From the NCBI GenBank assembly GCA_019695305.1, contig JAIBAG010000009.1, forward strand, positions 1 to 64,000: 64,000 bases of DNA, written 5' to 3'. The notes beneath the pieces were generated by a model that saw only the letters and a program-made list of their open reading frames with translations, was not told the DNA's origin and searched no databases. The stretch is from a bacterium (GTDB lineage: Bacteria > UBA10199 > JAIBAG01). The translations under genes and the position numbers were made by a program. Shown here piece after piece: positions 33,420 to 56,232 of this stretch (position 1 is its first letter; every line of letters starts with the position of its first letter).

Positions 33420-36060
33420 TTTTTACCTCCTGTTTAGGGGGAAGCGGTGAAAAATAACCCACAACCAATATAAGCATTCCAGACCCCATAAAAGCTATAA
33501 TACGATAGAGGCTATCGATACGCTTCATATCAACACCCACTAGTTTAATGACTGTTACTAAAAGCAACGCAACACCCACTTGCCATATTAATCGGCTCTT
33601 GTTTTTTGTTCCTCCCAGCATCAACACCATTGCAAAACATGTCCATAATAACGACATAAGAGCTTGGAAAAGCGGCGTTTGCAGTAAAACCTGAGAAGAA
33701 TATACAAGCTCCGTATAAAATGAAATGGTGCGTGCCAATACAAGATTGAGAAACACAAAAATGCTAATGCCCACACAAGACATCCACATCATTTTTTGTT
33801 TAGAATTTATGATTCCATTTTTTTCAGATCTTTTAATCCAATAAAAAAGTAACATTATAATGGCAACACTAAATAAATCGGCAAAATTTAAAAACGGTAA
33901 ATATGAATTAAGAAGAACGCTTACTCCTGAATGGTGCGGGATTATCAGAAAAAACCAAACTAATAATACAGCTGTAACCACGTTTAACGCCTTCATGTAG
34001 ACATTGCTTTTTTGCGCAAATGGCCAGAAGTTTTTATGACTCAGTTTTACAATTGTAAAACTGGATAATATAAATGCCAAAATGGGGCCAAAATAATATT
34101 TATCTTTAAACATAAAAAGGGATTCATCAGCGGCATAAAGTTGCATTTTAAAAGTCATTTGCACAATTTGAAACAGGTGCCCTACAAAAAGAAAAACTGC
34201 ATACAAATTTAAAGCGTGCATAAGCAACTTAACATACGTTGTTCCATCGTTTTTATAGAGATAGTAGGATTGCGCCAATAAACAGGCTGCTAACGATAAA
34301 ACCACATGCCATTGGGGTAAACTGTAAAAATGATCCCCAACAATTATGACCATACCTATAACGCTAGCCGGGAAAACAAGAGGAACAAAACATTTAATAT
34401 TTTCCCATTTTAAAATTACCGACACAAATTGCCAAAATAGAATTGATGTTGCTATAAAAATGAGTATAGCGGTATCAAGATAGGCAAATGAAATATGCTT
34501 ACTCAGCTCGAAAATAAAAATGAAATTAAACCAAAAGTGTCCAAAAAATACACACCACCCATAAAAAAATGTTTCTCCTGGCTTAAGAACATTTTTGTTT
34601 TTAAAATATTGGTACGAAAAAAATAAGTGCCCAATAGCTAAAATAAGGAACACAACAAAAATTTCGTTCACAAACAGTGTATGGCCATGATCCTTTGTTA
34701 ATAGTTCAATAACCCTAATACTCCCCATAATAATTAACAAAAAACCCGCCAAACGTGGCAAAATACGCGCCTGCTTAAGCCCCATCCAGGCAACACCACA
34801 GCCTTCTATTACCCAAACAATACTGGTTGCCGACTTATCCAAAGCGAGTGGAACAGCGAGTGTAAAAAAGCCAATGCCTAGGGCCACAAAACCTTGCACA
34901 ATAAGCTTTAGCGTTTCGGCATATTTGTTCCACATTAGCCGCCCTACAGTAATATAGAGCGCACTTAATAAAATTGAAAAAATGGCAAGAGCATTATTAC
35001 TTTCAAAAACGAGAGATTGATAAAAAATAGTAATGAGCGGCGTACCAAAAACCAGTGTAGCATCAACAGGATTAGATTTTCCGTTTGTCTTTTTTATGGC
35101 AAATAAAATGGAAACCGCAAAAAAGATGGTAAAAAAGAGCAAAATAAATGGTTCGGTCGTACTAAAATTTTGAGGAGTATAATATTTAAATCCCCAGATA
35201 GTGCCAACACCATAGGTAAAAAAGAAACCAATCAAATTAAGAACTCGCCACGACTGATAATAAGCTACACCCAAAATACCCAAATTAAGCACAGCATAAT
35301 ATCCAAATAACGCCACATGGTTACCCGATCCGGTAGAGGCCAAAATGGGCGCCATAAATCCACCTAAAAAACCCGTAATAGCCATCGCTTTATTACGTTG
35401 AACTACCGAAAGTAAAACGCTGATCACCACGGTAATAACAAGAAGCGTAAAAGTAAATCCGGCAGGAATTAGATGATAAAGCCTATAAGAGGCAAAAATA
35501 GTGAGATAAAATACAGCCAGCCCTAGGCCCTGCAAAAAAAGCCCATATTGCCCTTTTTTGCGTAAAAACCAGCCCAGCCCCAGCAAGCCTAAAGCCATAA
35601 GGGCTGCCATAGCCAAACGATATTCAATAGGGAAAAGTCCGCGATCGGAAACATATTTTACTAAAAAAACAATACCTAAAAAAAGAACAATACCTCCAAT
35701 GCGAAACACCAAATTTCCTCCAGTAAAAAAATTTTTAATAAATGTTGTAACAGGATCAGGTTTTCTAGGAATTACCGGTATTGACCTGGGGGTAGTAGAT
35801 GCGGCTGGTGGCGGTATATTAACACTTATAGAGGGAGCGGGACTCTCAGAAGCCAATGCCTTTTCTGGGGTTTTATCAGGCTTTACTTCTGTTTGTACAG
35901 AATCAGGCGGTATTGCACTATCGGGTTTTTGCTTTAACCGGTCAATTTCTAGGTACAATTGCGAAATTTTTTGTTCAAAATCTTTTTGTCCAATTTTTCC
36001 AGTACTTTTAATAATTGCAATTATTGAGATTACCAGTGCAATAAAAACCCAAAAAGCCAT
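33412..36060 (-). CDS. DUF2339-family polytopic membrane protein
   Basis: 882 residues with more than twenty predicted membrane helices, from about residue 110 to the C-terminus. The N-terminus is one helix (2-18), then a short coiled coil (KDFEQKISQLYLEIDRLKQK) and a Pro/Ser-rich linker with PVIPRKPDP. The conserved region FFTGGNLVFRIGGIVLFLGI and LMALGLLGLGWFLRKKGQ is characteristic of DUF2339. Function is unknown; the size and helix count suggest a transporter-like or scaffold protein. It is coupled to the DUF3999 gene downstream. Confidence 0.85.
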   Translation of the reverse strand: MAFWVFIALVISIIAIIKSTGKIGQKDFEQKISQLYLEIDRLKQKPDSAIPPDSVQTEVKPDKTPEKALASESPAPSISVNIPPPAASTTPRSIPVIPRKPDPVTTFIKNFFTGGNLVFRIGGIVLFLGIVFLVKYVSDRGLFPIEYRLAMAALMALGLLGLGWFLRKKGQYGLFLQGLGLAVFYLTIFASYRLYHLIPAGFTFTLLVITVVISVLLSVVQRNKAMAITGFLGGFMAPILASTGSGNHVALFGYYAVLNLGILGVAYYQSWRVLNLIGFFFTYGVGTIWGFKYYTPQNFSTTEPFILLFFTIFFAVSILFAIKKTNGKSNPVDATLVFGTPLITIFYQSLVFESNNALAIFSILLSALYITVGRLMWNKYAETLKLIVQGFVALGIGFFTLAVPLALDKSATSIVWVIEGCGVAWMGLKQARILPRLAGFLLIIMGSIRVIELLTKDHGHTLFVNEIFVVFLILAIGHLFFSYQYFKNKNVLKPGETFFYGWCVFFGHFWFNFIFIFELSKHISFAYLDTAILIFIATSILFWQFVSVILKWENIKCFVPLVFPASVIGMVIIVGDHFYSLPQWHVVLSLAACLLAQSYYLYKNDGTTYVKLLMHALNLYAVFLFVGHLFQIVQMTFKMQLYAADESLFMFKDKYYFGPILAFILSSFTIVKLSHKNFWPFAQKSNVYMKALNVVTAVLLVWFFLIIPHHSGVSVLLNSYLPFLNFADLFSVAIIMLLFYWIKRSEKNGIINSKQKMMWMSCVGISIFVFLNLVLARTISFYTELVYSSQVLLQTPLFQALMSLLWTCFAMVLMLGGTKNKSRLIWQVGVALLLVTVIKLVGVDMKRIDSLYRIIAFMGSGMLILVVGYFSPLPPKQEVKNV

Positions 36061-41230: not shown

Positions 41231-42637
41231 TTATTTGGATTTTTCTGATTCCAATTTGAAGGCGGGGATGGAGATGGGTTGCTGCATAAAAGTCCAGTAA
41301 TCGAGTTCCGAAACACGTTTGTTAAGAATTAAAAAGCTCACTAAAAGAGTAATAAACCCGGCCAACGCATAACCAAAACCATATGACTCAAAACCAAAAT
41401 AAAGTGTCATAAATGTACACACAGCGTTACTCACAAAAAATACTGCTGCCGTAAAACAGGCTTCCTTTTGAAAATCAAAATAGAAAATAATATTAATCAC
41501 CATCAAATAACCCATTTGTAAAAAAGCAGCTAAAATTCCAATGCGAAAAATACCCATTTGCAAAGGGTTTAAATTAAAAAAATCGGCTATAACATAAATA
41601 AAAAGAACTACCATGCCGCTAATGATGCCTTGAAAAATAGCATACTTTTGAAAATGCCCCGACAAACTATCCACCATCTCTTGTCTTTTTTGTTCAATAG
41701 TATGAAGTGAAGCTCTTTTACGAACGTGCTCGTAGTACGACAAATACACCTTTAAAAAATTGGTTTCCATCTGCACCATAAAAAAGGCCATAGAAGGAAT
41801 TACTGTTAAAAACGAAAGAAATATGGGGGTATCGTACAAGGTAAAAACACGTAAATGCGGAATAATTACATCTCCATTGGGCGAAAACCAAAATATAAAT
41901 TTATCAATCCATAATCCTGCATAATAGAAAATACCCGCACCCATTAAATAGGGATGCTTTTTAAAGTATTCAAAAAAACCAAAATCGTAAGCAGAAGTGT
42001 AACCAAACTCTTTAAAAATACGCATTGTTAAAATAGTAAAAACTACACCTTCACCAACCGTAAACGCCTGAATGTAACCAATAAGACCCTTAGATGATCC
42101 CCATATATAAGAAAGAGCAGCACTAATAATAGCCCCGGATAAAAAAGCCCACACCACCGCCAAGTAATTTTTTCCGGCCGACAAATACACCATGGCCATC
42201 CAAATACCGCTCATAAATAAAAATAATACGTACAAAACCCATTTTGCCGTAAACGGTATTTGTAAAAAATATAAATAGGGTAAACTTACTACCGTTTGAA
42301 CAGCAAAAAGAACGTGCAAAACAGCAATGTACGATGGTGAATAGGCCGACACTTCTTTTAAAAAATATTTATCGGCCAAATAGCGTGTCACTACATAAAA
42401 AAATGGGGCTGTGCCCAGCATAGAAAATGCAAACACGTATACAATAAGAGAGAAAAATAAATTGGACTCCTCTAAACTTAAATAATCTTGAATAAAAAAT
42501 TTAATACCAAAAAGAGTCCCCATCACCACCAAAAAAGGTCCCGACGAAATCATGGCCGAGTATGAATAAGCCCGTGCAATATCGGTATAAGAACCGCCTG
42601 CCAGCATTTTTTGTAATTTAAATGCAATTCCAGCCAT
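41231..42637 (-). CDS. pelG: Pel polysaccharide inner-membrane transporter PelG
   Basis: 468 residues with about twelve membrane helices, normal for PelG. PelG belongs to the polysaccharide-transporter (MOP/MATE-like) superfamily and, with PelD, PelE and PelF, carries the nascent polymer across the inner membrane. It begins MAGIAFKLQKMLAGGSYTDI and contains AYSYSAMISSGPFLVVMGTL, a very typical PelG opening. Position directly after pelF, 58 bases downstream, is the standard order. It is the last gene of the locus. Confidence 0.93.
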   Translation of the reverse strand: MAGIAFKLQKMLAGGSYTDIARAYSYSAMISSGPFLVVMGTLFGIKFFIQDYLSLEESNLFFSLIVYVFAFSMLGTAPFFYVVTRYLADKYFLKEVSAYSPSYIAVLHVLFAVQTVVSLPYLYFLQIPFTAKWVLYVLFLFMSGIWMAMVYLSAGKNYLAVVWAFLSGAIISAALSYIWGSSKGLIGYIQAFTVGEGVVFTILTMRIFKEFGYTSAYDFGFFEYFKKHPYLMGAGIFYYAGLWIDKFIFWFSPNGDVIIPHLRVFTLYDTPIFLSFLTVIPSMAFFMVQMETNFLKVYLSYYEHVRKRASLHTIEQKRQEMVDSLSGHFQKYAIFQGIISGMVVLFIYVIADFFNLNPLQMGIFRIGILAAFLQMGYLMVINIIFYFDFQKEACFTAAVFFVSNAVCTFMTLYFGFESYGFGYALAGFITLLVSFLILNKRVSELDYWTFMQQPISIPAFKLESEKSK

Positions 42638-42695
42638 ATTAATTATAGGGGCCTACGCATCCCCTTCATCGCTCGCATTCGTTTTCTGCTTTATT

Positions 42696-44159
42696 TTAAC
42701 GCAACTCAGTTTCGTAAACATTGAGATAGCGGCTTAATAAATCATCCTGATCGTAATAACGTGCCACCCTTTGTTTACCAGCCTCTCCCATTTTTTTATA
42801 AGTTTCTGGCTCCGCCAATAAATCGACCATGGCTTTAGCAGTTTGGGCTGGATTAGCCACTCCCGTCACTACACCACTAGGCCCTAAGGCTACGTCTTCA
42901 GGATATACGCCATATAACATTTCGGCACAGGCCCCCACATTGGTAGAAACCACCGGAATACCCACTGCATTTGCTTCTAAAACAACATAGGGCTGTGCTT
43001 CAGATACACTGGTAAGTACAACTAAATCGAGTTTCCCCAAAATATCGGCCATATTCATTCGGCCCGTAAACTGTATTTTGTTATTAAGCCCTAAAATATC
43101 AACCAGAGACTTACATTCATTAACATAATCTTCTTCCTCCTCTAAAGGCCCTACAATAAAAAACTCCGCATCGGGCTTTGATGCCAGTACAATTTTAGCG
43201 GCTTCAATAAAGGTTTTGATGTCTTTAATTCCTACCACACGCCCAATTAAACCAATACGGGGATGAGTGCTTGGTGTGGGCAAAATTTTCATATAATCGG
43301 TCATTCTAATACCGTTTGGAATCACCATTACTTTTTCGGGCGCAGCACCTTCAAAAATTTGTTTTAATCTATTCCCCTCGTACAGAGTAAAAATTTTATC
43401 AGAAGCAAAATAACTCATCCTGCTTAAAATTTTAAAAAGCGTAATCCACCATTCTTTAAAAAATGAAATACGCGACGTGGCACGGACCAAATCGGATTCT
43501 TCATCATATATCCAATTGGCCTGTGTAATTTCTAAAATACGCTCGTGCGTATATATCCCATGCTCTGTTAAATAATATTTACCACCGCTCATGCTTTTTG
43601 CCACAGCTCCCAATAACCCGGCATACCCTGTAGAAACAGCATGATAAATTTTAGATTGCGGAACTTCGGTAGTTAAAATTTGTAATAGAGGAAGATGTGT
43701 ACCACGCCATGTCCAAAAAAAATCGATGAAGGACACATCAATTTTAAGTTCATAATAAAGTTTATGAAGCAAATCCCATACTCCCTTGGATTTAAAAAAA
43801 GAAGGGATGGTAAAACATTTATTTTGTCCCTGAAAAAGCCTCAAAAAATCATCCCAAATGTCAAAATTGTTTTTTAATATCCCTCGGTAGAACAATTCAA
43901 TAGTGTCAAAGTCGTGCTTTTGAGGTTTACGTATTTTTTCATCTTCCAAACGATAATCGTGTAAATCAACTTCTTTGATGTAAATAATATTATCGGGCAA
44001 ATGATATTTAAATGTGCGGGTAGGATCTGCATGAGGAGAAATATAAACAATACCAAAACGAATATCACGCATGTGGCTTACAAGTTGATGAACCCATGTT
44101 GAAACACCACCCGCCACATACGGATAAGTACCTTCCAATAAAAGGCAAACATCAATCAT
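42696..44159 (-). CDS. pelF: Pel polysaccharide glycosyltransferase PelF
   Basis: 487 residues from the ATG at 44159; a longer upstream frame is rejected because this ATG overlaps the HEAT-gene stop as ATGA. GT-B fold family 4 glycosyltransferase that polymerises the Pel sugar in the cytoplasm. Signatures include DVCLLLEGTYPYVAGGVSTWVHQL (residues 2 onward, two linked motifs), AVSTGYAGLLGAVA, YLTEHGIYTHERI, the nucleotide-sugar site IGLIGRVVGIKDIKTFIEAA and the E-x7-E pattern in SVSEAQPYVVLEANAVGIPVV. In this locus a HEAT-repeat gene comes just before it. Confidence 0.95.
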   Translation of the reverse strand: MIDVCLLLEGTYPYVAGGVSTWVHQLVSHMRDIRFGIVYISPHADPTRTFKYHLPDNIIYIKEVDLHDYRLEDEKIRKPQKHDFDTIELFYRGILKNNFDIWDDFLRLFQGQNKCFTIPSFFKSKGVWDLLHKLYYELKIDVSFIDFFWTWRGTHLPLLQILTTEVPQSKIYHAVSTGYAGLLGAVAKSMSGGKYYLTEHGIYTHERILEITQANWIYDEESDLVRATSRISFFKEWWITLFKILSRMSYFASDKIFTLYEGNRLKQIFEGAAPEKVMVIPNGIRMTDYMKILPTPSTHPRIGLIGRVVGIKDIKTFIEAAKIVLASKPDAEFFIVGPLEEEEDYVNECKSLVDILGLNNKIQFTGRMNMADILGKLDLVVLTSVSEAQPYVVLEANAVGIPVVSTNVGACAEMLYGVYPEDVALGPSGVVTGVANPAQTAKAMVDLLAEPETYKKMGEAGKQRVARYYDQDDLLSRYLNVYETELR

Positions 44160-46105
44160 GCTACCTGCCTCTCTGTTCGGCTCATAAAAAAACGAATCGC
44201 TTTGGTACAAATACTGTTAAAACTCACATAATGGGAATCACATAAAAATGAAATCAGCTCAGACAATGTTTCCGCTTTATAACCACAACCTAAACTTAAA
44301 ATAAGTATTTCAACATTTTTGGCATCTGATAATTCGGAGAGTTTACGAATAATATTTTGCGATAAATCGAAATATAATAAATCACCATCATAAATACGCC
44401 GCTGCATTTGTTGCAGCGCTTCTGCCATCAACTGCCTGTTGTCCAAATGCTCTATAAAATCATTTAAAGCAAATAGATTCAATTTCAAACATACAGCGAG
44501 CCAATCAAAAAGTATTTTTGTAAAGCGGCCTTCTTGATCTAAACACATTAAGGTTTTAGAAAAATTAAAAAGAACAATAGGGGATAATTTTTGAATAACA
44601 AGAAGGCTTAAAAGGCGCTCTGCAAAAACTACATCGGTAACCGTCATTAAAGTTTCTGCTGCCTTGATTGGATCTTGGCTAACAATATCATGGATAATAT
44701 CATCTAAAACCTGCTTAATAGCGGGGTCTTGCTCTTTTTCTTCCAAAATTGTGAGACTTAAAAAAAGTGAGGGATCGACTTTCAATTTTAAAAGCTGCAA
44801 AACTAAATACCGAATATTGGCTACTGGATGGTTCATGAGCGGAATAAGAAAATCTTTTAAGTTCTCATCTGCTTCAAATCCCATTTTACAGGCGTGCTTT
44901 AAAAAAACTTGGATTGTTGACTCGTATTTTATGGTTTTTTCCAAGTAAAATAAAAGTGGCATATTTTTATTGTTTCCCCATATTTTACATAAAACTCCAC
45001 TAGCCACATACGCATTAACCTGACTTTTACTTAAACCATCTTCTAGTAATGGAATGTATCGCTTATCACCCTGGTACCCCATGCATTCCATTAAATGAAT
45101 GGTTTCCTTATCGTCCTTTTTTCCCCTCCATTCTTGCATCAAATAATGAAAGCAATCATCATCCTTCTTTAATGAAGCATATAAAGTAAGCACTCGAAAA
45201 CGAATAACTGAATTTTTATCAGACATCATTTTTTTAAGATAACGAGATAACATGGACATGGGGAAACCCAATAATGTAGCTTCGGCTTTGAGAACCACAT
45301 TTCTGTCGTTAGAGCGCGTTAAAATATCTACCAAATGTCGCACCACTTTAAAATTGGGATGTACCGCTAAACAAGAAATAGCCTCTTGACGAACATCAGC
45401 CGATAAATCACCCATAGAAAGTTCAAAAAATAGGTTGCGAACCTTGTGTTTACGGTCTCTTTTAATAATCCACAAAATGGCTTTTCGAATACGTGGTGAA
45501 GGATCTTTAATTTGAAGCAAAATAAGTTTTAAAATCTGGCGCTTCATATAGTGGTATATAGAGCCCAGAGCTAATAAGGCATGAAAGCGCACATTTTCGT
45601 CGTTACTATTTAAAAAATACGCTGCATCATTAAAAATACGCTTATCGGCTAACAACCTAATTCCCATCAAACAGGCCATAAATGTTTTTTCATCTTGTTC
45701 CCGCATAATTCTTAAAATTGGAACAGTGCTTTCAGAAACTGCATGTGAGGTCAGTTTATCAATGGCATACAGCCTTGCCTTGGGATGTGGTGCCTTTAAT
45801 ATATTAAGAAGTCTTTTAATTTTTTCGGGATAGCGGTTTTTATCGTAAGCCAAAATGGCTCGTTCTACTACCGACTCGTTTAAATCATTAAGAAGTGTTA
45901 CCAAATAGCGGGATGAGCGTTCATCTTCTAAACGGGACAAAAAGCGACAAAATAAAATTTTTAAAATAGGATCAGTTGCAATGAGTATGCGTGTTATTTC
46001 CTGAAACGCCTCTGGCGTTTGAGCATAATACAAATCAAACCACGCCTTGTGTTGTACTGCCTCATCCTGACTTTCTAAATTAGACCGAATTAAATCGAGG
46101 TTCAT
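44156..46105 (-). CDS. HEAT-repeat protein inserted between pelE and pelF
   Basis: 649 residues from the ATG at 46105. It is almost wholly alpha-helical with repeating 30-40 residue units such as YLVTLLNDLNESVVERAILA, LLNILKAPHPKARLYAIDKL, and LLALGSIYHYMKRQILKLIL. This is a HEAT/Armadillo solenoid. No signal peptide or clear membrane helix is visible, so it is probably cytoplasmic. It is coupled to both neighbours: ATGA overlap with pelE upstream and with pelF downstream. Solenoids bind partners, so a scaffold between PelD/PelE and the glycosyltransferase PelF is an attractive guess. It is not part of the canonical seven-gene pel set. Confidence 0.88.
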   Translation of the reverse strand: MNLDLIRSNLESQDEAVQHKAWFDLYYAQTPEAFQEITRILIATDPILKILFCRFLSRLEDERSSRYLVTLLNDLNESVVERAILAYDKNRYPEKIKRLLNILKAPHPKARLYAIDKLTSHAVSESTVPILRIMREQDEKTFMACLMGIRLLADKRIFNDAAYFLNSNDENVRFHALLALGSIYHYMKRQILKLILLQIKDPSPRIRKAILWIIKRDRKHKVRNLFFELSMGDLSADVRQEAISCLAVHPNFKVVRHLVDILTRSNDRNVVLKAEATLLGFPMSMLSRYLKKMMSDKNSVIRFRVLTLYASLKKDDDCFHYLMQEWRGKKDDKETIHLMECMGYQGDKRYIPLLEDGLSKSQVNAYVASGVLCKIWGNNKNMPLLFYLEKTIKYESTIQVFLKHACKMGFEADENLKDFLIPLMNHPVANIRYLVLQLLKLKVDPSLFLSLTILEEKEQDPAIKQVLDDIIHDIVSQDPIKAAETLMTVTDVVFAERLLSLLVIQKLSPIVLFNFSKTLMCLDQEGRFTKILFDWLAVCLKLNLFALNDFIEHLDNRQLMAEALQQMQRRIYDGDLLYFDLSQNIIRKLSELSDAKNVEILILSLGCGYKAETLSELISFLCDSHYVSFNSICTKAIRFFMSRTERQVA

Positions 46106-47142
46106 ACTACCCCCCACCACTGCGCCAATGAAATATACTGTGATGGCAATGTACCGTTTGTGGTTCCTTGTCTTAACTCCTTGGTCAATTCTTGATACCT
46201 TTGTTGCTCAAATAAAATACGAATACGCCAATCCAGTTCGTTGGTAAAATCAATAAGCTGCATGTGACGTGCTTTTTCTAATACATCCAATGCTTTTATG
46301 TAGTTTTTTTGCTTAAAAAGTAACTCCAATAAAAAAAGAACAACTCGTGTATTCACGTGCTTACTATCAAAACAAAATAAAAGATGTTTTTTAGCTTCTT
46401 CGTAATAAATAGCAGCTGTTTCACTATTTACTAAACCCGATTCGGCATATTGCTGATAGACTTTAGCTAAAAAAATACGTGCCGAAACTTTGTATTCTCC
46501 CTCTTTCAACTGTTCATGGGCCGCTTCAATTTCTTCTTCAAATTTCTTTCTTATTTTTTCAAGCCCAGACGTAACATAAAACCGCGTATCAGCCGAAGCC
46601 GATGATCTCATCGACATTAAAAGATTTACCGACTCGGGACTTGCAAGTGCTACCAAACGATCAATGGCCCCTCTCTTCATTTCGTCATCGGATAGCATCA
46701 TAATATCGGCAAGCGATAATACGTCGTTTGCCTCAATTAAGCGCTCTTCTAAAGGACGTATATCGTATAAACTACGTTTGGTAAGTTCTGGGGTTATTTC
46801 ATCTTCGTAGTAATTGGGATTGTCTACATCGGGCTTAGCAAAGCGACAAAATAAAAAAATAGGTAAAGCCATTACCGCGCCAAAAACAGGAAAAAATAAT
46901 CCAAAAAAAGAAAAAAGACGCGGCCAGTTCCGCATGTGATCAAACCAGCCAAAGCCTTTTGATTCGGAAAAAAGCAAAACAATAGACGATAGCAGATGAA
47001 TGGCCATAGCCGATTCGGGCCTAAATAAAATTTTTGAATTATTCCCCAAAAAAAACGACATGAAAAAAGGATATTCAAGGCTGAGTGCTATAACCCAGCA
47101 CAAGATGAACCTCACAGTAATGTAGAGTCTTGTTTCAAGCAT
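46102..47142 (-). CDS. pelE: PelE-like membrane-TPR protein
   Basis: 346 residues from the ATG at 47142, which overlaps the pelD stop by 8 bases. Two to three N-terminal hydrophobic segments (around VRFILCWVIALSLEYPFF, AIHLLSSIVLLFSESKG, FSFFGLFFPVFGAVMALPIF) are followed by helical TPR-like repeats (YKVSARIFLAKVYQQYAESG, KQKNYIKALDVLEKARHMQL). This matches PelE, an inner-membrane TPR protein that sits between PelD and PelF/PelG. Sequence similarity to reference PelE is not obvious by eye; the call rests on architecture and position. Confidence 0.75.
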   Translation of the reverse strand: MLETRLYITVRFILCWVIALSLEYPFFMSFFLGNNSKILFRPESAMAIHLLSSIVLLFSESKGFGWFDHMRNWPRLFSFFGLFFPVFGAVMALPIFLFCRFAKPDVDNPNYYEDEITPELTKRSLYDIRPLEERLIEANDVLSLADIMMLSDDEMKRGAIDRLVALASPESVNLLMSMRSSASADTRFYVTSGLEKIRKKFEEEIEAAHEQLKEGEYKVSARIFLAKVYQQYAESGLVNSETAAIYYEEAKKHLLFCFDSKHVNTRVVLFLLELLFKQKNYIKALDVLEKARHMQLIDFTNELDWRIRILFEQQRYQELTKELRQGTTNGTLPSQYISLAQWWGVV

Positions 47143-48490
47143 CCAGCATGGTCCTGGCTTTTTCAATAAGCATCTGTGCGTCGTTCATTCCCGGCATAAA
47201 CGACGAAATTCCCAGATGTAATTCCACTCCATCGTGTAACTGCAACTTATTGAACCTGTCTTCAATAATTTTGGCCAATTCACTCGCTTTGGCTTCGGTA
47301 GTTGTGCTTAACAAACACATAAACGACAAACGAGCATCGGTACTTTTAGCAAGTACATCGGTATCACGCAGGCTTTCGTTTAACAAACGTGATACCAATA
47401 CATAATATTTATGTTTAACGGCTATATCCTTATCGGCTAGTCCCGTTAAACGTACCAACATAAGAGAAACAGGCAGATAGTATGTTACTGAACGGATAAA
47501 TTCTTGCTTCAAACGTGTTTCAAAATAACTGTAGGTGTAAACATTGAGTTCATTATCCATAATTTCCTGTCCTCGCATTTCTTCCATATAAAAAGAACGG
47601 CCTAACGACCGTGATGCCCAGGCTGCCAAAAAGGATAATAAATTAGTTGTGGCACTGTTAAGATTAGTAATCGCTATTTTTTGTACGGCAAATATAGCCA
47701 CCAAATCGCCGTTTTCACCGTTATAAAGAGGGCACGCTAGCAAACACTCCCTTGGGCCATGTCCTTCATTACCGGTTGTTGTAAAATCTTTAATGGTTAC
47801 AAGTCTACGCGATGAACCCGCCAAACCCACCAAACCCTCATTCGCCCCATAGGCCGCTGGAAATTGATTTGGGTTTTCCCAACCATAACGGGCCCTTAAA
47901 ACCCACCCCGTATCGGTACGCATATATAAAGATGCTGCTTCCAAATTTAAGGCTTTTGCAAAAAAATCTACTATACCGGCGGTTAATTCATCTAAATCGT
48001 TTGCATCTAAGCGACGTGCACCTTCATAAAGTGTAACCATTGTGGTAAAACGGCTTACAATTTTTTTCTCTAAATCGCGTGAAATCGCCTTTTGTGCCTC
48101 TACCTCTCGGGATAAATTTATAATTTCCTGACCCAAATCCTGCATACTCTTTTTTTGGTTAGCAATAATAAAAATATATCGATTTACCCCCAAACCAATT
48201 AACGTTCCCAAAATAATAAAGAGAGCCGGCAAAATGTAAAAGGTAACATCTTCAAAAACATATCGTTCACCAAAAAACCAAATAAGCCCCAAATACGAAA
48301 ATGTAGAAACAAACCCGGATAACGAGCCAGCAACTAACCCATAACGAAAACCAAACAGCAAAATACCCAACCAAAACGGATGTGGATGAATATCTAAAAA
48401 ACCGGGATAAGCTCGAAAAAAAGTAAAATTAACAACAATAATAAGGAAATAAAAAAAGAAAATTTCAAAATAAAAGGATTTGTTTTTCAT
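47135..48490 (-). CDS. pelD: PelD-like c-di-GMP receptor
   Basis: 451 residues. Three or four membrane helices (about 8-110) are followed by a coiled coil (115-145), a GAF domain (about 150-300) and a degenerate GGDEF domain (about 315-450). At the expected place stands RDTD (Arg375-Asp378), an RxxD inhibitory-site motif, while the GGDEF active site is replaced by STDAR. This is the hallmark of PelD, which binds c-di-GMP without making it and activates Pel export. A second basic residue, Arg412, lies roughly where the second c-di-GMP arginine of Pseudomonas PelD is found. Start ATG 48490. Confidence 0.9.
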   Translation of the reverse strand: MKNKSFYFEIFFFYFLIIVVNFTFFRAYPGFLDIHPHPFWLGILLFGFRYGLVAGSLSGFVSTFSYLGLIWFFGERYVFEDVTFYILPALFIILGTLIGLGVNRYIFIIANQKKSMQDLGQEIINLSREVEAQKAISRDLEKKIVSRFTTMVTLYEGARRLDANDLDELTAGIVDFFAKALNLEAASLYMRTDTGWVLRARYGWENPNQFPAAYGANEGLVGLAGSSRRLVTIKDFTTTGNEGHGPRECLLACPLYNGENGDLVAIFAVQKIAITNLNSATTNLLSFLAAWASRSLGRSFYMEEMRGQEIMDNELNVYTYSYFETRLKQEFIRSVTYYLPVSLMLVRLTGLADKDIAVKHKYYVLVSRLLNESLRDTDVLAKSTDARLSFMCLLSTTTEAKASELAKIIEDRFNKLQLHDGVELHLGISSFMPGMNDAQMLIEKARTMLDA

Positions 48491-48529
48491 TTACCCTTTA
48501 AAAAGGAGAGAATTACCCAATACATTTAA

Positions 48530-48898
48530 CTAGCCGGCCAATAACGTTTTAATTTGCCCCACTAACTCCTGTGGCTCAAACGGCTTTACGTAAAAATGAA
48601 CATCGTTTTGAAACAATAATTTTCTTTCGGCATCACTTAATGTTTTGGCTGTTAATACAATAATGGGTGTTTTTTTATAACGAGAATCAGCCCGCGCCGA
48701 CTTAATAATGTCAAAACCACTCACCTCAGGCATCATCAGATCTGTTAAGATTAAATCGTAGGTTTGTTTTTCCAGTTCTTTGAGTGCAACAACCGGATCG
48801 TTTAAGGTAACAGCTTCAATGTTATGAAAATGAAGCATTGTGGTGAGTAAATCGGTAAAATCTTTCTCGTCATCAATAAATATTACTTTTTTTGACAT
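48530..48898 (-). CDS. Single-domain CheY-like response regulator inside the pel locus
   Basis: 122 residues, one receiver domain and nothing else. The acidic pocket (Asp9-Asp10 in FIDDEKD), phospho-acceptor Asp53 in LILTDLMMP, Thr in IIVLTAK and Lys in FYVKPFEP are all intact, so it should be phosphorylatable. It lies 39 bases before pelD and 50 bases after pelB, exactly in the place of the missing pelC. No kinase is adjacent. It may link Pel export to a phosphorelay by binding one of the Pel proteins. Confidence 0.9.
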   Translation of the reverse strand: MSKKVIFIDDEKDFTDLLTTMLHFHNIEAVTLNDPVVALKELEKQTYDLILTDLMMPEVSGFDIIKSARADSRYKKTPIIVLTAKTLSDAERKLLFQNDVHFYVKPFEPQELVGQIKTLLAG

Positions 48899-48948
48899 AC
48901 CAGTAAGCTAGTGTATTTCTTATGGAAACTCAACTGAATTTAAGTTTG

Positions 48949-51918
48949 CTACTTCCAATATCCGGTCATACTGAGCAAGCCCTCATGCGACTGTCCGCTG
49001 GTGGTTGACTGGCTCTCCGAACCATAGCGATAAAGACCCTCCAAAACATAATTTTTACCCCAATACCATTTAAGATTGCTTTGGGCACCCCACAAATCGC
49101 CTTCAAAAAGATGCAGGTTTCTCTTAGTATCTTCTCCACCAAAAACACCCACTTGGTAATACAAATTGCGACCAACATGATGAGCAAGATCTAGTGAAAA
49201 ATAATGAGTACGGGTATCGGCCAAAAGATTAACTTGGCTTAAAAATGAAGCACTTTGGTTGATATGCATAAAACTTAAGCGATATCCTGCGGTAAGTGAA
49301 GGATTTTTTAAAAATTTGTAGCTAATACCGGGTTCGATCACGTGACCTGTTGCTGTATCTCCTGCTTTTAAACTGTAACGACTAAATTCGTAGCGAGCAT
49401 TGAGGGCTAAACGATCACTTGGTTGAAATAAAGCCAAAAATTCTCCCGTATGTTCCTTACCCCCCGCAGGAATCGCCTGAGGCGTACTGAGCATGGCCTG
49501 GTTGACTTTAATATTTTGAATCAACGTGAGTGAATCATATATTACTTCACGACTCTGCAGCGAAAAACCAGGCGCCTTTACAAAATGACTTTGAGTATAA
49601 TCGGCCTGTACTTCCACGTTCCAAAACGGATTAATATTAAAACCCACGCCTAAGGCAGCATCTACAGTATTGTTTTTAGTATTTTTACTGCCCACATCAT
49701 AAAAACCATGGCGCCCTTGGCCCATTACATAAAAGCGGTTATTTAAAGCAAAACGCACAAAAGCTGCATTTTGCATATAAAAATCCAGTCCCAAATCGTT
49801 AAAGAAAAACTTGTATCCTGCATGGCTTGATTTCTCGTCACGAATCAAACGATACAAATCTTGCACTAAGGGGATATGTTTCTTTGAAGCCGAAAGAGAT
49901 TCAAGGGTATTTAAAGCTTCTTTCCACTGCCCATTTTTATCCTGCACATACGCTAAATCGTGGTGTAAAAAATAATTATCCGGGTCAAAAGTCAGTGCTT
50001 CTTTAAAATACCGAATCGCCTTTTTCCATTCTTTATCAAGCACCGCTATACGTGCCAAAGTAGAACTTTTGGTCTGCACGTCATCGGGATAGTAAGTAGT
50101 ATAACGCACATAATAACTTCCGGCCTCCCGAGACTTTTTATTTTCAATCAAAAGATCAATCACATCAAAATAAAACTGCTGCTCACGGGGATATTTTTTT
50201 ATTATTTGGGCGTAATCGTTAAGAACATGATCGTTTAAGCTCATACGGCCACGCGCCTTTAAGGCTTTGGCCATAAGCTGAATGGAAGGTGATTTTTCTT
50301 TTTTGTAGAGAGTTAAATAATGTTGAAAATGAACAAAAGCTTCCTGTTTACGATCTTTACCGTACTCAATTTCACCCAACCAATAGGAAGGAACAAGTTT
50401 ATCGCCTTTTTTTAGAAGATTGTTAAAAATAGATTGGGATTCCGTTACTTGACCCCAAAAATAAAACAAAGCCCCCATCTCTTCCATAATTTTATCATCA
50501 TTTTCATAATGAACCACAACATGATGGGCCCATGTTTCAGCTTCGTTTTGTTTGCCACTTTTATCCGCTAAAAAAATAAGGTCTTTTAAAATTGTGTAAG
50601 AAGGATTTTTCCCGGCTATTTTTTTAAGGCGACTATAGGCATCGTTATAACGGAGAGCATCCACCAAAACCGACACCAGTGTTTTTTGATAAACAGATGA
50701 ATTACCAAATGCTTTTTCGTGCTCTAGTAGCCATGCAAGAGCAACTTCTCTTTTATTTTTCTCAATCAACAAATTAGCCACATCCATGGCAAAAGACGCA
50801 TCCGGGAAAAAAATCAAAACTTCGCGGTACAAACTCAAGGCGCTGTCATCTTTTAACTTATACAAAAGGGTTTCGGCCATATTTTGCTTCATCGAGGTAT
50901 CATCTGAAAAGTTCTTAAGATAACGCTCCATGTAATAAAGCACTTCATCAAAATTACCCAAACGAGCATAAGCATCAATCATACCCCGCCATGAGTCTCG
51001 ATCATTTTCATCTAAAGATGTCAGTCTTTCAAAAAGTTTTATACCTTCTTCGTCGCGTCCCACATCTACATACAAAGTAGCCAATAAACGCATCATGCTA
51101 ATGCGCTCCAAATCATTTAAGGTTTTTAAACCCAAGGTTTTTTCGGCAAACGGGATTGCATCGGAATATAATTTTAAATCATTAAAAACCTGCGTAATGC
51201 GCATGAGAAGAATTTTATCAAAAGGGGAAAGTAAAAGACCTTCTCTTAAAATTTTTAATGCCTCCTGGTTTCGCTTTTGAACCTGTAAAATAGAGACAAT
51301 TTCGGTACGAATACCCGAATTTTGTGGCTGTTTTTGAAGTTCACCTCTTAAAAATTCCAAGAGCTTATCTGTTTTTTTAAAGCCCTTGTCTAAATCAACA
51401 AGTCGATAGGTATAAGCCTCTGGACGCGGGGTAATAGGAATAATTTTGAGCAATATAGAATAGGCCTCATTAACCTTTTGTGTCCACAAGGCATGCTGTA
51501 AGGCAGCATCATATAGAGACGCCACCTTGTAACGCGCTACTCTTTTATCGTTTATAAACATATCGGCTATTTTAAGCCTGGCTTTATAAAGATCTTCATC
51601 TTGGTTCATTTCAGAAAGCATATCCAGGTATAATTGTGCCACTTCCCAGTCAGCTTTTCGATAATCCATTAATTGTTGTAATACATGTAAAGCCTTGCTT
51701 GGTTCTCCCATCCGCTTATACAAAGAAGAAAGACGTTTAATAACAAATTTGCTATTTGGTTTTTTTTGAAGATAATCCAGATAATATTGCTCGGCACGTG
51801 TTAGCTCACTTTGTCCCTCGTAAATATATCCCAAAAAAAGTTTAGAGGGATACAAAAGCCACAACAAAAGAAATATTGTGAGAAAAAAAATCCCTATTTT
51901 GATTTTAGATAAATTCAA
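48949..51918 (-). CDS. pelB: PelB-like TPR and outer-membrane beta-barrel exporter
   Basis: 989 residues. A short N-terminal hydrophobic anchor (about 7-26) precedes a long series of TPRs (residues 40 to about 690; for example RAEQYYLDYLQKKPNSKFVI and YFKEALTFDPDNYFLHHDLA). The last 300 residues form a beta barrel with alternating strands (NTVDAALGVGFNINPFWNVE, HYFSLDLAHHVGRNLYYQVG). This is the PelB layout: a periplasmic scaffold for PelA plus the outer-membrane pore. It is shorter than Pseudomonas PelB (near 1190). It ends ...SMTGYWK, an aromatic-rich terminal strand. Confidence 0.9.
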   Translation of the reverse strand: MNLSKIKIGIFFLTIFLLLWLLYPSKLFLGYIYEGQSELTRAEQYYLDYLQKKPNSKFVIKRLSSLYKRMGEPSKALHVLQQLMDYRKADWEVAQLYLDMLSEMNQDEDLYKARLKIADMFINDKRVARYKVASLYDAALQHALWTQKVNEAYSILLKIIPITPRPEAYTYRLVDLDKGFKKTDKLLEFLRGELQKQPQNSGIRTEIVSILQVQKRNQEALKILREGLLLSPFDKILLMRITQVFNDLKLYSDAIPFAEKTLGLKTLNDLERISMMRLLATLYVDVGRDEEGIKLFERLTSLDENDRDSWRGMIDAYARLGNFDEVLYYMERYLKNFSDDTSMKQNMAETLLYKLKDDSALSLYREVLIFFPDASFAMDVANLLIEKNKREVALAWLLEHEKAFGNSSVYQKTLVSVLVDALRYNDAYSRLKKIAGKNPSYTILKDLIFLADKSGKQNEAETWAHHVVVHYENDDKIMEEMGALFYFWGQVTESQSIFNNLLKKGDKLVPSYWLGEIEYGKDRKQEAFVHFQHYLTLYKKEKSPSIQLMAKALKARGRMSLNDHVLNDYAQIIKKYPREQQFYFDVIDLLIENKKSREAGSYYVRYTTYYPDDVQTKSSTLARIAVLDKEWKKAIRYFKEALTFDPDNYFLHHDLAYVQDKNGQWKEALNTLESLSASKKHIPLVQDLYRLIRDEKSSHAGYKFFFNDLGLDFYMQNAAFVRFALNNRFYVMGQGRHGFYDVGSKNTKNNTVDAALGVGFNINPFWNVEVQADYTQSHFVKAPGFSLQSREVIYDSLTLIQNIKVNQAMLSTPQAIPAGGKEHTGEFLALFQPSDRLALNARYEFSRYSLKAGDTATGHVIEPGISYKFLKNPSLTAGYRLSFMHINQSASFLSQVNLLADTRTHYFSLDLAHHVGRNLYYQVGVFGGEDTKRNLHLFEGDLWGAQSNLKWYWGKNYVLEGLYRYGSESQSTTSGQSHEGLLSMTGYWK

Positions 51919-51965
51919 TCCAGTCCCTAATTTCTAAAAAAATAACTTATACGTTTTCTATACAG

Positions 51966-54035
51966 CTAAGGAATTAGCGTTATATTAACCGCAAGCGCTT
52001 CCTTTTCATTTTCTGCACTTGGAAAAGTGTAATCCAAGATTCCATCTTGAGAGGCAGAAGCCACAGCTTCTTGATTGGCATAACTAATTAAATACCTAGC
52101 CTTTGAAGGTAACCCTCCCAGGCTCATCCTGCTTTTATGCCAACCTTTTTTTTCAAATGAAATATTTTTCCCTTTAACATCCCAATTCATGACATCAAAT
52201 GTAGATTGAACAATATAAGGCTTTCCAGGTTTTAATCCGGTTAAATAAATTATCTGAGAGTCTTCATCATTTAAAAATACATACAAATTACCCTGATCAT
52301 GATGAAAACCAAGCACACCTCGTGAGCGTACAAGATCTACATTTAAAATGGTGTTATCAAAACGGATAGTTTTTAAATGAGAGTGATTACTAATAACATA
52401 ACCACCGCTATCATTAATGGCAATTTGGGTGGAATAGAAACCTTGGGCTAATTTTGAAAAACGGCTGGCGGTAATAGCAAAAATGGACTGGGCCAGTGCA
52501 TAATCGTATGCTTTTTTAAGTGCTTTTAAAGAGGCTTGATACTCACCTGAATAAAAATGATAATAAACATTGAGAGGTTTAATTCGTTTGGGGGTATTGG
52601 TATTTTGAAAAGTTTCAATTACATCCTGATAACCATAATAAGGACCCTTCCAGCGATTGGTATAGGTATTTTCATTGGAATTACTGGCATAAATTTGCCA
52701 AATGCCATTGTGATTCAAACCCAAAGGCGCCACATAGGAAACGCTATCAAAAATGCGATCAAATCGACTGTCACCACCATTAATATTGGCCAAACCTGCC
52801 TCGCTTGGTACTCGAGCCTGCTCGTCGGTGGGCAAACAATTTCCTGTCCATTCAAACAAATCTACTTTTTTGGAAACGCCCATTTTTTTTAATAATTGAT
52901 TCATTTTTTCTGCAGAAGTCGCTATTTCCTTTTTTTCATCAAATCTGTAATCCGCAATTTTCAGGGAGTAAGTTTCCTTTTTCCAATCTAGGGGATGAGC
53001 ATAGCCATGCGAAGAAGGTTCAATATTGGGTAAAGAATAAATATTCTGGTATAATTTTTGAATACGCTCTGTATTAAATTCTGGCATATCAAAGTAACCG
53101 GTAATCAGAGAAGCCGTGATGGGAATAGAGGAATATTTTTTAAGAATCTCATTATAAATTATTTCACCATCATACGACTTGCGATCGATATTAGATAAAT
53201 TAACAATACCATCTCCATCAATATGGCTGTAAAAAATTCGGTTGCCGTTAATGGTAGTAGTGTCGGGTATTGGAAGCCCCTGTAAGCCATAGGCTTCTTC
53301 AAAAAACAAAAAGGGATTAACTCTCCACTGCTGCTTTTTAATATCGGGAACCATATAAAAAGCATGTGTGGGTTGTGCATAGCCCCCGTTTTCGGAAGTA
53401 AACACCATAGACGAGTCGCTATTCTCCAAATCGGTACGGCGTATCGTTAAATGGGAAGTAACTGTTGAACGTGCGGGTTTAATAAGACGATAAACTATAG
53501 GCTCTGAAAAAAGAAGTTTTCTTTCATAGCTCATCATTTTGGGATTAGAGTAAACTAATTCAAAAAAATAAGGGTTATCCGAATACTCCGATGTATATAT
53601 ACCGCCCAATCTTTTAAAAGCTTCACTACACACAGGAGAAAGCCCCGAAGCTTTTTCTTCTAAAAATCCTAATTCCGATAAAACCACCATCTTTACCCCG
53701 CGGTCGAAGGCCTGGTTTAAAAAGTTGCAATAATCTTGTGTGTTAGGAACAACATTGGGTGTTTTAAACCAACTCAATATCCCTCTCACATCGCTTAATG
53801 TATCCCAATTTGGTAAAGGTTTATTTACACCCCAATACATGAGTTTAAGCCCCAGATGGTTAAGAGAGGACTCTACATACTGATGAATATCGGTGTAAAA
53901 TGGTGCGGGATAAATTTTGTCGTCATAAAAAACGAGAATGGTTCGCTTTACCGGAGTTTCACCAGCAAAAGAAAAAGGCAAGATAGAAGAAAATGCCCAT
54001 AAAAAAAACAGCGCTTTAGCAAATAAATTTTTCAT
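51966..54035 (-). CDS. pelA: PelA deacetylase portion, encoded as a separate protein
   Basis: 689 residues with a Sec signal peptide (about 1-24, FAG). It corresponds to the middle and C-terminal parts of Pseudomonas PelA. A Rossmann-like region (RTILVFYDDK...GVKMVVLSELGFL) is followed by the carbohydrate-esterase core: His271, Asp273 and Asp275 in FYSHIDGDGIVN, then His343 and His347 in PSSHGYAHPLDW. These are the metal-binding and catalytic positions expected in this polysaccharide deacetylase type. A C-terminal beta-rich domain ends the protein. The hydrolase domain that normally precedes it is missing and is encoded by the next gene upstream, which overlaps by 4 bases. Confidence 0.92.
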   Translation of the reverse strand: MKNLFAKALFFLWAFSSILPFSFAGETPVKRTILVFYDDKIYPAPFYTDIHQYVESSLNHLGLKLMYWGVNKPLPNWDTLSDVRGILSWFKTPNVVPNTQDYCNFLNQAFDRGVKMVVLSELGFLEEKASGLSPVCSEAFKRLGGIYTSEYSDNPYFFELVYSNPKMMSYERKLLFSEPIVYRLIKPARSTVTSHLTIRRTDLENSDSSMVFTSENGGYAQPTHAFYMVPDIKKQQWRVNPFLFFEEAYGLQGLPIPDTTTINGNRIFYSHIDGDGIVNLSNIDRKSYDGEIIYNEILKKYSSIPITASLITGYFDMPEFNTERIQKLYQNIYSLPNIEPSSHGYAHPLDWKKETYSLKIADYRFDEKKEIATSAEKMNQLLKKMGVSKKVDLFEWTGNCLPTDEQARVPSEAGLANINGGDSRFDRIFDSVSYVAPLGLNHNGIWQIYASNSNENTYTNRWKGPYYGYQDVIETFQNTNTPKRIKPLNVYYHFYSGEYQASLKALKKAYDYALAQSIFAITASRFSKLAQGFYSTQIAINDSGGYVISNHSHLKTIRFDNTILNVDLVRSRGVLGFHHDQGNLYVFLNDEDSQIIYLTGLKPGKPYIVQSTFDVMNWDVKGKNISFEKKGWHKSRMSLGGLPSKARYLISYANQEAVASASQDGILDYTFPSAENEKEALAVNITLIP

Positions 54036-54847
54036 TCATCTTCAATCAAAACATTTTTTTCAAAAAGAATGTCGCTTACCAAATAATGGAACCCCATTTT
54101 TTTTAAATCACGAATGCCATTTTGGATGCGATAGGAATGTATATTGGTGCCGTACAGTACCACATAAACCGGTTTATTGAAACGTTCTTTAAAGCTTTGC
54201 AAGTACCGTATTTTTACTTCTCTTTCATCCCGGGCCACATCGGTATAAGTCTTGTTTTTAAAATCATATCCCGTCATCACATCTTCGGCCACCGCACCAG
54301 TAATGATATTTCCCATTTTGTCTAAAAGAGCGAGAGCGTTATTGGTATAAATCTCTAAATCGGGGTATTGATTGTGAAGTTTGGCTATAAAACCTAACAA
54401 CGCTTCCTGTGATCCTTGCTGATTGAGTACGTTTTCGGCATAAAGCGCCGTATCGAGCGTATCTAAAAAAAGTCCACTATAACCATCAGCCATAAAACGA
54501 GGAATAAGTGTGTTAATCAAATAGGTCTGCCATTTGGCATTTCTAATATCTACCCTATAAGCGCCGTCCCAATCGGGATTCTTTTCAAGAATGGTTTTAG
54601 AATTGTTAAAAAGCACAAAATACGGCCGTGTGTCATGGATTTCACCCACACTTAAATAGGCAATAAATTTAGTAGTCTTGGGATAGGATGCAGGCGTAAT
54701 ATTGTCGGGGTCGGTAATAATAAAATTGAGCTTAGATAAAGACGAAGCGTTTAAATTTTTACCATAATAGATCATCCAGCCCGATGTTTGTGAGGAGCAA
54801 GCACTTAAAAAAAATAAAAAAAGAATTAGAGTAATTCTTTTTTCCAC
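54032..54847 (-). CDS. PelA hydrolase portion (GH166-like) as a separate lipoprotein
   Basis: 271 residues from a GTG at 54847 with AGGAGG just upstream. A lipoprotein signal ends at Cys17 (LSAC). The rest matches the PelA endo-alpha-1,4-galactosaminidase fold (TIM barrel): WMIYYGKNLNASSLSKLNFI, FIAYLSVGEIHD with Glu69, GYSGLFLDTLDTA with Asp129, and EIYTNNALALLD. In Pseudomonas this domain is the N-terminal part of PelA. Here it is an independent, probably lipid-anchored enzyme. Its stop overlaps the deacetylase start by 4 bases, so the two products are made together. It begins 22 bases inside the end of the ArsC-like gene. Confidence 0.9.
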   Translation of the reverse strand: MEKRITLILFLFFLSACSSQTSGWMIYYGKNLNASSLSKLNFIITDPDNITPASYPKTTKFIAYLSVGEIHDTRPYFVLFNNSKTILEKNPDWDGAYRVDIRNAKWQTYLINTLIPRFMADGYSGLFLDTLDTALYAENVLNQQGSQEALLGFIAKLHNQYPDLEIYTNNALALLDKMGNIITGAVAEDVMTGYDFKNKTYTDVARDEREVKIRYLQSFKERFNKPVYVVLYGTNIHSYRIQNGIRDLKKMGFHYLVSDILFEKNVLIEDE

Positions 54848-55182
54848 TCATCCTCCTTAAATCCAACCAAACCTATTTTTGGCGATAAAACAAAAGGTCT
54901 TTTAATTAAATTACCATTACCTGCTAGCAATTTTAGGATATCCGCTTGTGAGAGTGACGGTAATTGATTGGCAATTTTCAAGGTTCGGTAATCCTGGCCA
55001 GAGGTATTAAAAAGCTTTTTGACTTCTCCTTTTAAATGGACCAGCATACTTTTTATTTCGCCTTGAGATGGAGGTGTTTCTCGAATAGGAAACACTTGAT
55101 GCTTAATATTGTGCGCGTTTAAAAATTTAAGTGCTTTTTGACAGGTGCTACAGTTTTTATAGACGTATATTTTAAGTAACAT
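54826..55182 (-). CDS. ArsC/Spx-family thioredoxin-fold protein
   Basis: 118 residues. The N-terminal active-site motif is Cys11-Ser-Thr-Cys14 in YKNCSTCQKAL, followed by the family landmarks DYRTLK and NLIKRPF. A CxxC is the Spx/YffB pattern rather than the single Cys of arsenate reductase, so the substrate is not assigned. It is the first gene of the pel-linked minus-strand run, overlapping the hydrolase gene by 22 bases, and is divergent from the CapA-like gene with only 27 bases between starts. Cotranscription with pel genes may be incidental, or may reflect redox control. Confidence 0.85.
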   Translation of the reverse strand: MLLKIYVYKNCSTCQKALKFLNAHNIKHQVFPIRETPPSQGEIKSMLVHLKGEVKKLFNTSGQDYRTLKIANQLPSLSQADILKLLAGNGNLIKRPFVLSPKIGLVGFKEDEWKKELL

Positions 55183-55209: not shown

Positions 55210-56232
55210 ATGAAAACAAAAATTTTACTCTTTCTTCTTATTCTCCCTTACCCTGCATTTGCATTTACCATTGCTCTGGGTGGAGATACTATGTTGGGAC
55301 GTAATGTCGCATTGGCTAATCGTGATGCTTCGGTTAGCGAAGTGTGGGGTAACAGCCAGGAACTATTTCTAAAAGCCAACTTTGCATTGGTAAATGCCGA
55401 ACTCGCTTTTACAAATCACACCAAAACTTACGAAAAAAAGGCATTTTACTTTAAAGCACCGCCGTCTCATGTTCGTTTTTTAAAAGCATTAGGTATAGAT
55501 GCCGTCAATTTGGCCAATAATCATGTTCTTGATTACGGGCTTGCGGGCTTAAAAGACACACTTCAAACCTATAAAAAAGCTGGTATCACAATAGCGGGCG
55601 CCGGACTCAAGCACAATGAAGCCTACACTGTTCCTCTGATTAAAGTTCAAAACCATACTATCGCTCTTATTTCGCTAACCGATAATGTAGTTTCCTGGCA
55701 AGCCCAAGATAATAAGCCAGGTATTGCCTACGCTCCTATTAATAGTAGCGGTTTAGCACAAACCATTGAACGAATCAAAAAAGCCAAAGCGAGCGGCGCT
55801 GATTATATTATTATATCTCTTCACTGGGGCGGCAATTGGGTAAAAGCACCCTCAGCCGAATTTCAACATTTTGCCCACGGTCTTGTGGATGCCGGCGCTG
55901 ATCTTATTCACGGGCATAGCCCGCATGTTTTTCAAGGAATGGAACTTTATAAGGGCAAACCCATTTTTTATAGTTTGGGCGATTTAATTGATGATTACGA
56001 GGTAAAACCAGACATGCGAAACGATTTGGGACTTATTGCCGAGGTAAGATTAAACGAAAATATGACATTTAAAAAAGCGTCTCTTTATCCAGTTAATATT
56101 ATCAACACAAAAACGCGTTTAGCTGAAGAGAACAATCTTAAAACAGCCCTTGATCGCGCTAAGATGTTATCACAAGCTCTTGGCACACAGGGTGCCATAG
56201 AGCAAAACCAATTTGTAATAACAGCGAAGTAA
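55210..56232 (+). CDS. CapA family (poly-gamma-glutamate-type) exported protein
   Basis: 340 residues with a signal peptide (about 1-18, AFA). The calcineurin-like phosphoesterase fold of CapA is shown by IALGGDTMLGRNV, NAELAFT, VNLANNHVLDYGLAGL, ISLHWGGNW and HGHSPHVFQGMELYKGKPIFYSLGD (quoted as separate motifs). CapA proteins take part in capsule anchoring or export in Gram-positives; in Gram-negatives the role is unclear. It is divergent from the pel-linked run across 27 bases, which hints at a shared envelope-polysaccharide function without proving it. Confidence 0.88.
   Translation: MKTKILLFLLILPYPAFAFTIALGGDTMLGRNVALANRDASVSEVWGNSQELFLKANFALVNAELAFTNHTKTYEKKAFYFKAPPSHVRFLKALGIDAVNLANNHVLDYGLAGLKDTLQTYKKAGITIAGAGLKHNEAYTVPLIKVQNHTIALISLTDNVVSWQAQDNKPGIAYAPINSSGLAQTIERIKKAKASGADYIIISLHWGGNWVKAPSAEFQHFAHGLVDAGADLIHGHSPHVFQGMELYKGKPIFYSLGDLIDDYEVKPDMRNDLGLIAEVRLNENMTFKKASLYPVNIINTKTRLAEENNLKTALDRAKMLSQALGTQGAIEQNQFVITAK

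Follow-up and report, generated by a model that had tools for sequence, protein, structure and literature searches.

A nine-gene Pel locus occupies positions 41231-54847 on the minus strand of the window, by which we mean the whole 64,000-nucleotide stretch analysed, and is complete, running in the order PelA hydrolase (PelAh), PelA deacetylase (PelAd), PelB, a single-domain receiver (REC), PelD, PelE, a HEAT-repeat protein, PelF and PelG (Table 1). An earlier note, drawn from the letters of the window, had described these genes together with an ArsC-like neighbour as ten closely packed minus-strand genes, and this description holds: all ten ORFs lie where it placed them, and with the start of pelF corrected the junctions from the ArsC-like gene to pelG measure −22, −4, 47, 50, 39, −32, −4, −4 and 58 bases, those of the pel locus ranging from −32 to +58. 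Overlaps of 4 bases link PelAh to PelAd, PelE to HEAT and HEAT to PelF, the last with ATG 44159, where it meets the HEAT stop, as the most likely start of pelF.

Seven Pel functions (both PelA activities, PelB, PelD, PelE, PelF and PelG) were identified by family profile or structure match, which upholds the proposal that this is a variant Pel system. The locus is best explained as a synthesis and export system for Pel, a sticky sugar polymer of biofilms that consists of partly deacetylated alpha-1,4 N-acetylgalactosamine, of a widespread type marked by the HEAT and receiver genes. The genome to which the window belongs (58 contigs, 95.6% complete) has as its nearest named relatives metagenome-assembled genomes (MAGs) called Deltaproteobacteria bacterium, such as CG11_big_fil_rev_8_21_14_0_20_47_16 and RIFCSPLOWO2_02_FULL_50_16, which we take to be placed in GTDB UBA10199. 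Elsewhere in the window, adjacent genes at 32067-36060 encode DUF3999 (2e-72) and DUF2339 (1e-144) membrane proteins.

Table 1. Genes of the pel locus and its upstream neighbour, in the order of transcription
Gene	Position	Strand	Product and supporting matches
ArsC/Spx-family gene	54826..55182	-	118 aa; TIGR01617 6e-28
pelA-hydrolase (PelAh)	54032..54847	-	271 aa, lipobox LSAC, likely lipoprotein; GH114, PelA 5tcb
pelA-deacetylase (PelAd)	51966..54035	-	689 aa, signal peptide; PelA 9cgy match
pelB	48949..51918	-	989 aa; N-terminal TM helix, TPR solenoid, C-terminal 16-strand barrel
REC	48530..48898	-	122 aa; single-domain CheY-like receiver; PF00072 2e-19
pelD	47135..48490	-	451 aa; N-terminal TM region, GAF, degenerate GGDEF; GAF/GGDEF profiles
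pelE	46102..47166	-	354 aa or less (start uncertain); TM + TPR-like region
HEAT-repeat gene	44156..46105	-	about 650 aa; HEAT_2 2e-22; start ATG 46105
pelF	42696..44159	-	GT4 glycosyltransferase (polymerase); NF038011 1e-148, 496 bits, cut-off 100
pelG	41231..42637	-	inner-membrane transporter; PF16933 5e-122, 408 bits, cut-off 29

PelA, PelD, PelE and the flanking gene

The two PelA activities are encoded by separate, overlapping ORFs, where the canonical locus has a single fused PelA. PelAh matches both the GH114 profile (2e-17) and the PelA hydrolase domain 5tcb (2e-17) and keeps a glutamate at the position of the catalytic one in solved PelA (replaced by Ala in 5tsy). PelAd aligns with residues 276-852, i.e., the non-hydrolase part, of solved PelA 9cgy (4.5e-65) with conserved HIDGDG and SHxxxHP motifs, and Pfam profiles gave no match to the 689-aa protein. 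The split had been taken as a mark of the variant and does not serve as one: PelA is fused (959 aa) in L030, a locus from the same taxonomic order as the window, and split in the other Gram-negative loci L051, L057 and L115; separate hydrolase genes also occur in loci without HEAT, and Gram-positives have separate PelADA and PelAH (PMC7112168). A split PelA is thus ruled out as a hallmark.

The ArsC-like gene shares 22 bases with pelAh and is likely co-transcribed with the pel locus. Its inclusion in the system by the earlier note did not survive comparison, as none of the related loci carries such a gene and its slot is filled by another receiver in all nine class relatives that have this flank. 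The starts of the ArsC-like gene and of a divergent PGA_cap (CapA-like) gene at 55210-56232 lie 27 bases apart, which leaves almost no space for two promoters, so that one of them may be annotated too far upstream.

Since neither Pfam nor NCBIfam has a model for PelD or PelE, both were identified by iterated profiles and position. Seeded from the window, these reached Pseudomonas PelD at 2e-97 and Pseudomonas PelE at 2e-89, the PelE profile drifting to other TPR proteins as well; a phmmer search of the window PelD against solved structures found no match. The RxxD of the I-site, a predicted c-di-GMP site, lies at R375-D378 and is kept in 21 of 25 PelDs from HEAT-type loci. R402, the second c-di-GMP arginine of P. 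aeruginosa, has no clear counterpart in the window PelD, where K407/I408 occupy this place and R412 lies nearby. The I-site is altered to TxxD, AxxD and KxxD in L023, L062 and L068, respectively, all of them HEAT-type loci that keep the receiver, and perhaps a phosphorelay has taken over from c-di-GMP there. The PelD ORF of another HEAT locus (L024:9705-10520, 272 aa) is without the N-terminal membrane region, and this locus is also without the receiver.

The HEAT and receiver genes across phyla

The AlphaFold2 model of the HEAT protein (pLDDT 90.6) is all helical and forms one continuous alpha-solenoid; profile and model thus agree on the tandem helical repeats of a HEAT/ARM solenoid, and no signal peptide was seen in the protein. 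Its closest Foldseek matches are generic binding scaffolds, namely karyopherins, the PP2A A subunit and beta-catenin. When 99 related genomes were searched with a HEAT alignment of 23 rows, a full-length HEAT protein (at least 182 bits) was found in 16 of them, all 16 PelF-positive, and the next match (107 bits) is a generic HEAT protein. PelF exceeded its cut-off in 17 of the 99, with G095 as the only PelF-positive genome that lacks HEAT. Judged by this co-occurrence, the HEAT protein is a pel-specific family.

A PelF alignment search of genome contigs yielded 80 named loci, and a scan of viral contigs with PelF found no relative. HEAT stands directly before pelF, mostly with a 4-base overlap across phyla, in MAGs named Deltaproteobacteria (the class of the window), Elusimicrobia, Auribacterota, one Planctomycetota and several other bacteria, and in the Bdellovibrionota groups Bacteriovoracaceae, Halobacteriovoraceae, Bdellovibrionales and Oligoflexia. 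It was not found in the pel loci of Pseudomonas, Marinobacter, Nitrosospira, Granulosicoccaceae, Verrucomicrobia, Calditrichaeota, Desulfovibrio or Eremiobacterota. Five changes are required to explain the presence of HEAT on an 86-row PelF tree, and HEAT may have had one origin, which points to an old, partly lineage-bound feature.

A single-domain receiver lies directly upstream of pelD in 21 of 26 HEAT loci and in none of 44 others (Fisher p=2e-13, or 3e-8 when loci are crudely merged by organism name, both uncorrected for phylogeny). In an alignment of 21 pel-linked receivers the phospho-acceptor D53 is conserved along with D10 and K105, and these proteins share family-specific residues (E91, P109 and an FH motif). 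The recurrence of both genes in the same slots across several phyla bears out the proposal that they are conserved parts of the locus. As for related genomes in which they might be unlinked from pel, which the earlier note had named as evidence against it, the linkage stands for HEAT, with no unlinked case, and gives way for the receiver, which is missing from five HEAT loci (L024, L045, L046, L086 and L111) and is therefore dispensable to the HEAT family. No REC-PelD or HEAT-PelF fusions were seen, and the long PelD proteins of L046 and L096 showed no fused receiver. PAS-HisKA-HATPase kinases are encoded upstream of pelA in three class relatives (L033:1587-3862, L034:1558-3969 and L035:11615-13854), two of them hybrid, with extra single-domain receivers directly upstream of pelA; these kinases and receivers are candidate partners of the pel receiver.

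PelB and the absence of PelC

The predicted structure of PelB (pLDDT 86.8) comprises an N-terminal helix, a TPR solenoid, also matched by TPR profiles, and 16 strands, and it superimposes on PelB of the PelBC complex 9h80 with a TM-score of 0.70 by target length over 441 columns (Foldseek). The model contains no extra domain able to stand in for PelC, the partner that forms an outer-membrane lipoprotein ring. We built a PelC model from Pseudomonas-type loci and extended it over the fetched loci; the PelC that it found in L111 matches solved PelC of 9h80 at 1e-9. The profile gave no match at E<=0.01 in the window genome and found PelC at 8e-45 in G074, another genome with HEAT and receiver, from a phylum represented by three genomes only. 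Among class relatives the matches are scattered and weak (8.6e-4 to 0.0099) and include genomes without PelF, and no PelC was found at the pel loci of the class. The window locus also has no space for pelC, with gaps of 50 bases between pelB and REC and 39 between REC and pelD, and most loci of the class are likewise. As far as sequence can tell, pelC is absent from both locus and genome, as the earlier note had proposed for the locus, although a very divergent PelC may be encoded outside the locus or in the ~4% of the genome that the assembly lacks.

An undetectable PelC is not unusual. Of the 38 non-HEAT loci in which pelD precedes pelF, 20 likewise show none, some of these being Gram-positive-like or on incomplete contigs, and the protein itself is short and only weakly conserved (identities of 20-32% within the set). 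The further suggestion that pelC had been replaced fared less well: PelC, receiver and HEAT occur together in L023, L047, L049, L070 and L084, and PelC and HEAT without the receiver in L111, in the order PelB-PelC-(REC)-PelD-PelE-HEAT-PelF-PelG where the contig shows it. Two other loci carry PelC in long ORFs, one of 1130 aa with the PelC domain fused to PelA (L092:12940-16329, Granulosicoccaceae) and one of 651 aa (L110:5201-7153, in a record named Akkermansia muciniphila), and these possibly reflect a natural link between PelC and PelA.

Interpretation and comparison with known systems

We propose that the locus encodes a Pel synthase in which a HEAT solenoid organises PelE and PelF and a phosphorylation input acts beside c-di-GMP, a reading to which we assign a probability of about 0.6. 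Judged by family or structure match, PelF polymerises the sugar, PelG, PelD and PelE form the inner-membrane complex, PelAd deacetylates the polymer, the separate lipoprotein PelAh cleaves it, and PelB carries it through the outer membrane, in this lineage probably without the PelC ring. The HEAT solenoid may act as a cytoplasmic synthase scaffold that binds PelF and/or PelE and thereby keeps the soluble polymerase on the PelDEG complex. A histidine kinase, whose gene lies next to pel in some relatives and elsewhere here, would phosphorylate the receiver, which would then switch the complex post-translationally through PelD or HEAT as a second input beside c-di-GMP on PelD. Soluble PelF is known to be brought to the membrane by PelD, PelE and PelG, the subsequent activation by c-di-GMP being unexplained (PMC8461298), and in Myxococcus the single-domain regulator EpsW is known to touch an exopolysaccharide enzyme directly and so activate it (PMC12802240). 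A more ambitious version, that these loci form a distinct multi-phylum class of Pel synthase in which an obligatory HEAT subunit brings in or switches on PelF under the control of a gating phospho-receiver, with output needing both c-di-GMP and a phosphorelay and with some PelB proteins working without a PelC ring, is tentative, and we would bet against it, if not heavily.

Two other accounts concern PelC. It is somewhat unlikely that PelC is present and too divergent to detect, leaving the receiver and HEAT as the only novelty: the shortness and poor conservation of the protein would allow this, and P. aeruginosa is reported to require PelC for Pel export (PMC12141448), but there is no room for the gene in the window or in most class loci, the profile that is silent in the window genome at E<=0.01 is emphatic in G074, and the weak class matches also turn up in genomes without PelF. 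That the receiver and/or HEAT substitute for PelC in export, the outer-membrane ring having been swapped for other parts, would agree with the missing PelC here and at the class pel loci and with the position of the receiver between pelB and pelD, the pelC slot in Pseudomonas. We nevertheless regard this as highly improbable, and largely ruled out by coexistence, given that six HEAT loci have pelC, five of them with the receiver too and with pelC preceding it, that neither protein shows an export signal whereas PelC is an outer-membrane lipoprotein, and that many loci without HEAT also have no detectable PelC.

The target of the receiver might also lie outside Pel, and it may be an ordinary orphan response regulator, co-transcribed incidentally and serving, e.g., motility or transcription, with HEAT as the only real added Pel part. 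Receivers are abundant, five of the 26 HEAT loci lack this one, and the second receiver and kinases at the 5' end in relatives suggest a set of signalling genes that travel together; against this stand its constant slot in several phyla, its absence from all 44 non-HEAT loci and the residues peculiar to the family, and we consider an orphan regulator unlikely. Quite unlikely, finally, is that Pel parts have been reused for a polymer other than Pel. The evidence on the product consists of homology, and divergent pel-like loci may yield different polymers, as cautioned in PMC7112194, but the hydrolase glutamate and deacetylase motifs of solved PelA are kept and PelF scores far above its curated cut-off.

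The proposed synthase with its HEAT scaffold and phosphorylation input has two conserved extra parts at the PelD-to-PelF activation step, a solenoid coupled to pelE/pelF and a receiver coupled to pelD; as activation of PelF by c-di-GMP is the step left unexplained (PMC8461298), they offer testable handles on it. The survey also shows Gram-negative-type PelB systems without detectable PelC, a protein reported to be indispensable in P. aeruginosa (PMC12141448), and adds uncultured and predatory lineages to those with recognised Pel loci.

The locus is a widespread and, it seems, undescribed variant of a known machine: in the part of the literature that our search covered, no paper joins a pel operon with HEAT repeats, and papers found by a broader search describe no such locus in their titles and abstracts. 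Gram-negative pel operons of Nitrosospira, Leptospirillum and aquatic thermophiles already show rearrangement, gene gain and fission of PelB, and the accessible part of that account mentions no HEAT or receiver genes (PMC7112194). With pelABCDEFG of Pseudomonas aeruginosa the window shares the PelA activities, PelB, PelD with its RxxD, PelE, PelF, PelG and the order B-D-E-F-G, but it lacks PelC, divides PelA between two genes and places the receiver before pelD and HEAT between pelE and pelF. Separate hydrolase and deacetylase genes and the absence of PelC are shared with the Gram-positive pelDEADAFG of Bacillus cereus (PMC7112168), from which the window differs in its HEAT and receiver genes, in a PelB with an outer-membrane barrel, and in having PelA before PelB rather than inside D-E-A-F-G. 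EpsW-EpsZ of Myxococcus (PMC12802240) belongs to a Wzx/Wzy pathway, targets a phosphoglycosyl transferase and has no HEAT protein, but it likewise ties a single-domain receiver to exopolysaccharide synthesis and so provides a model for how the pel receiver may act.
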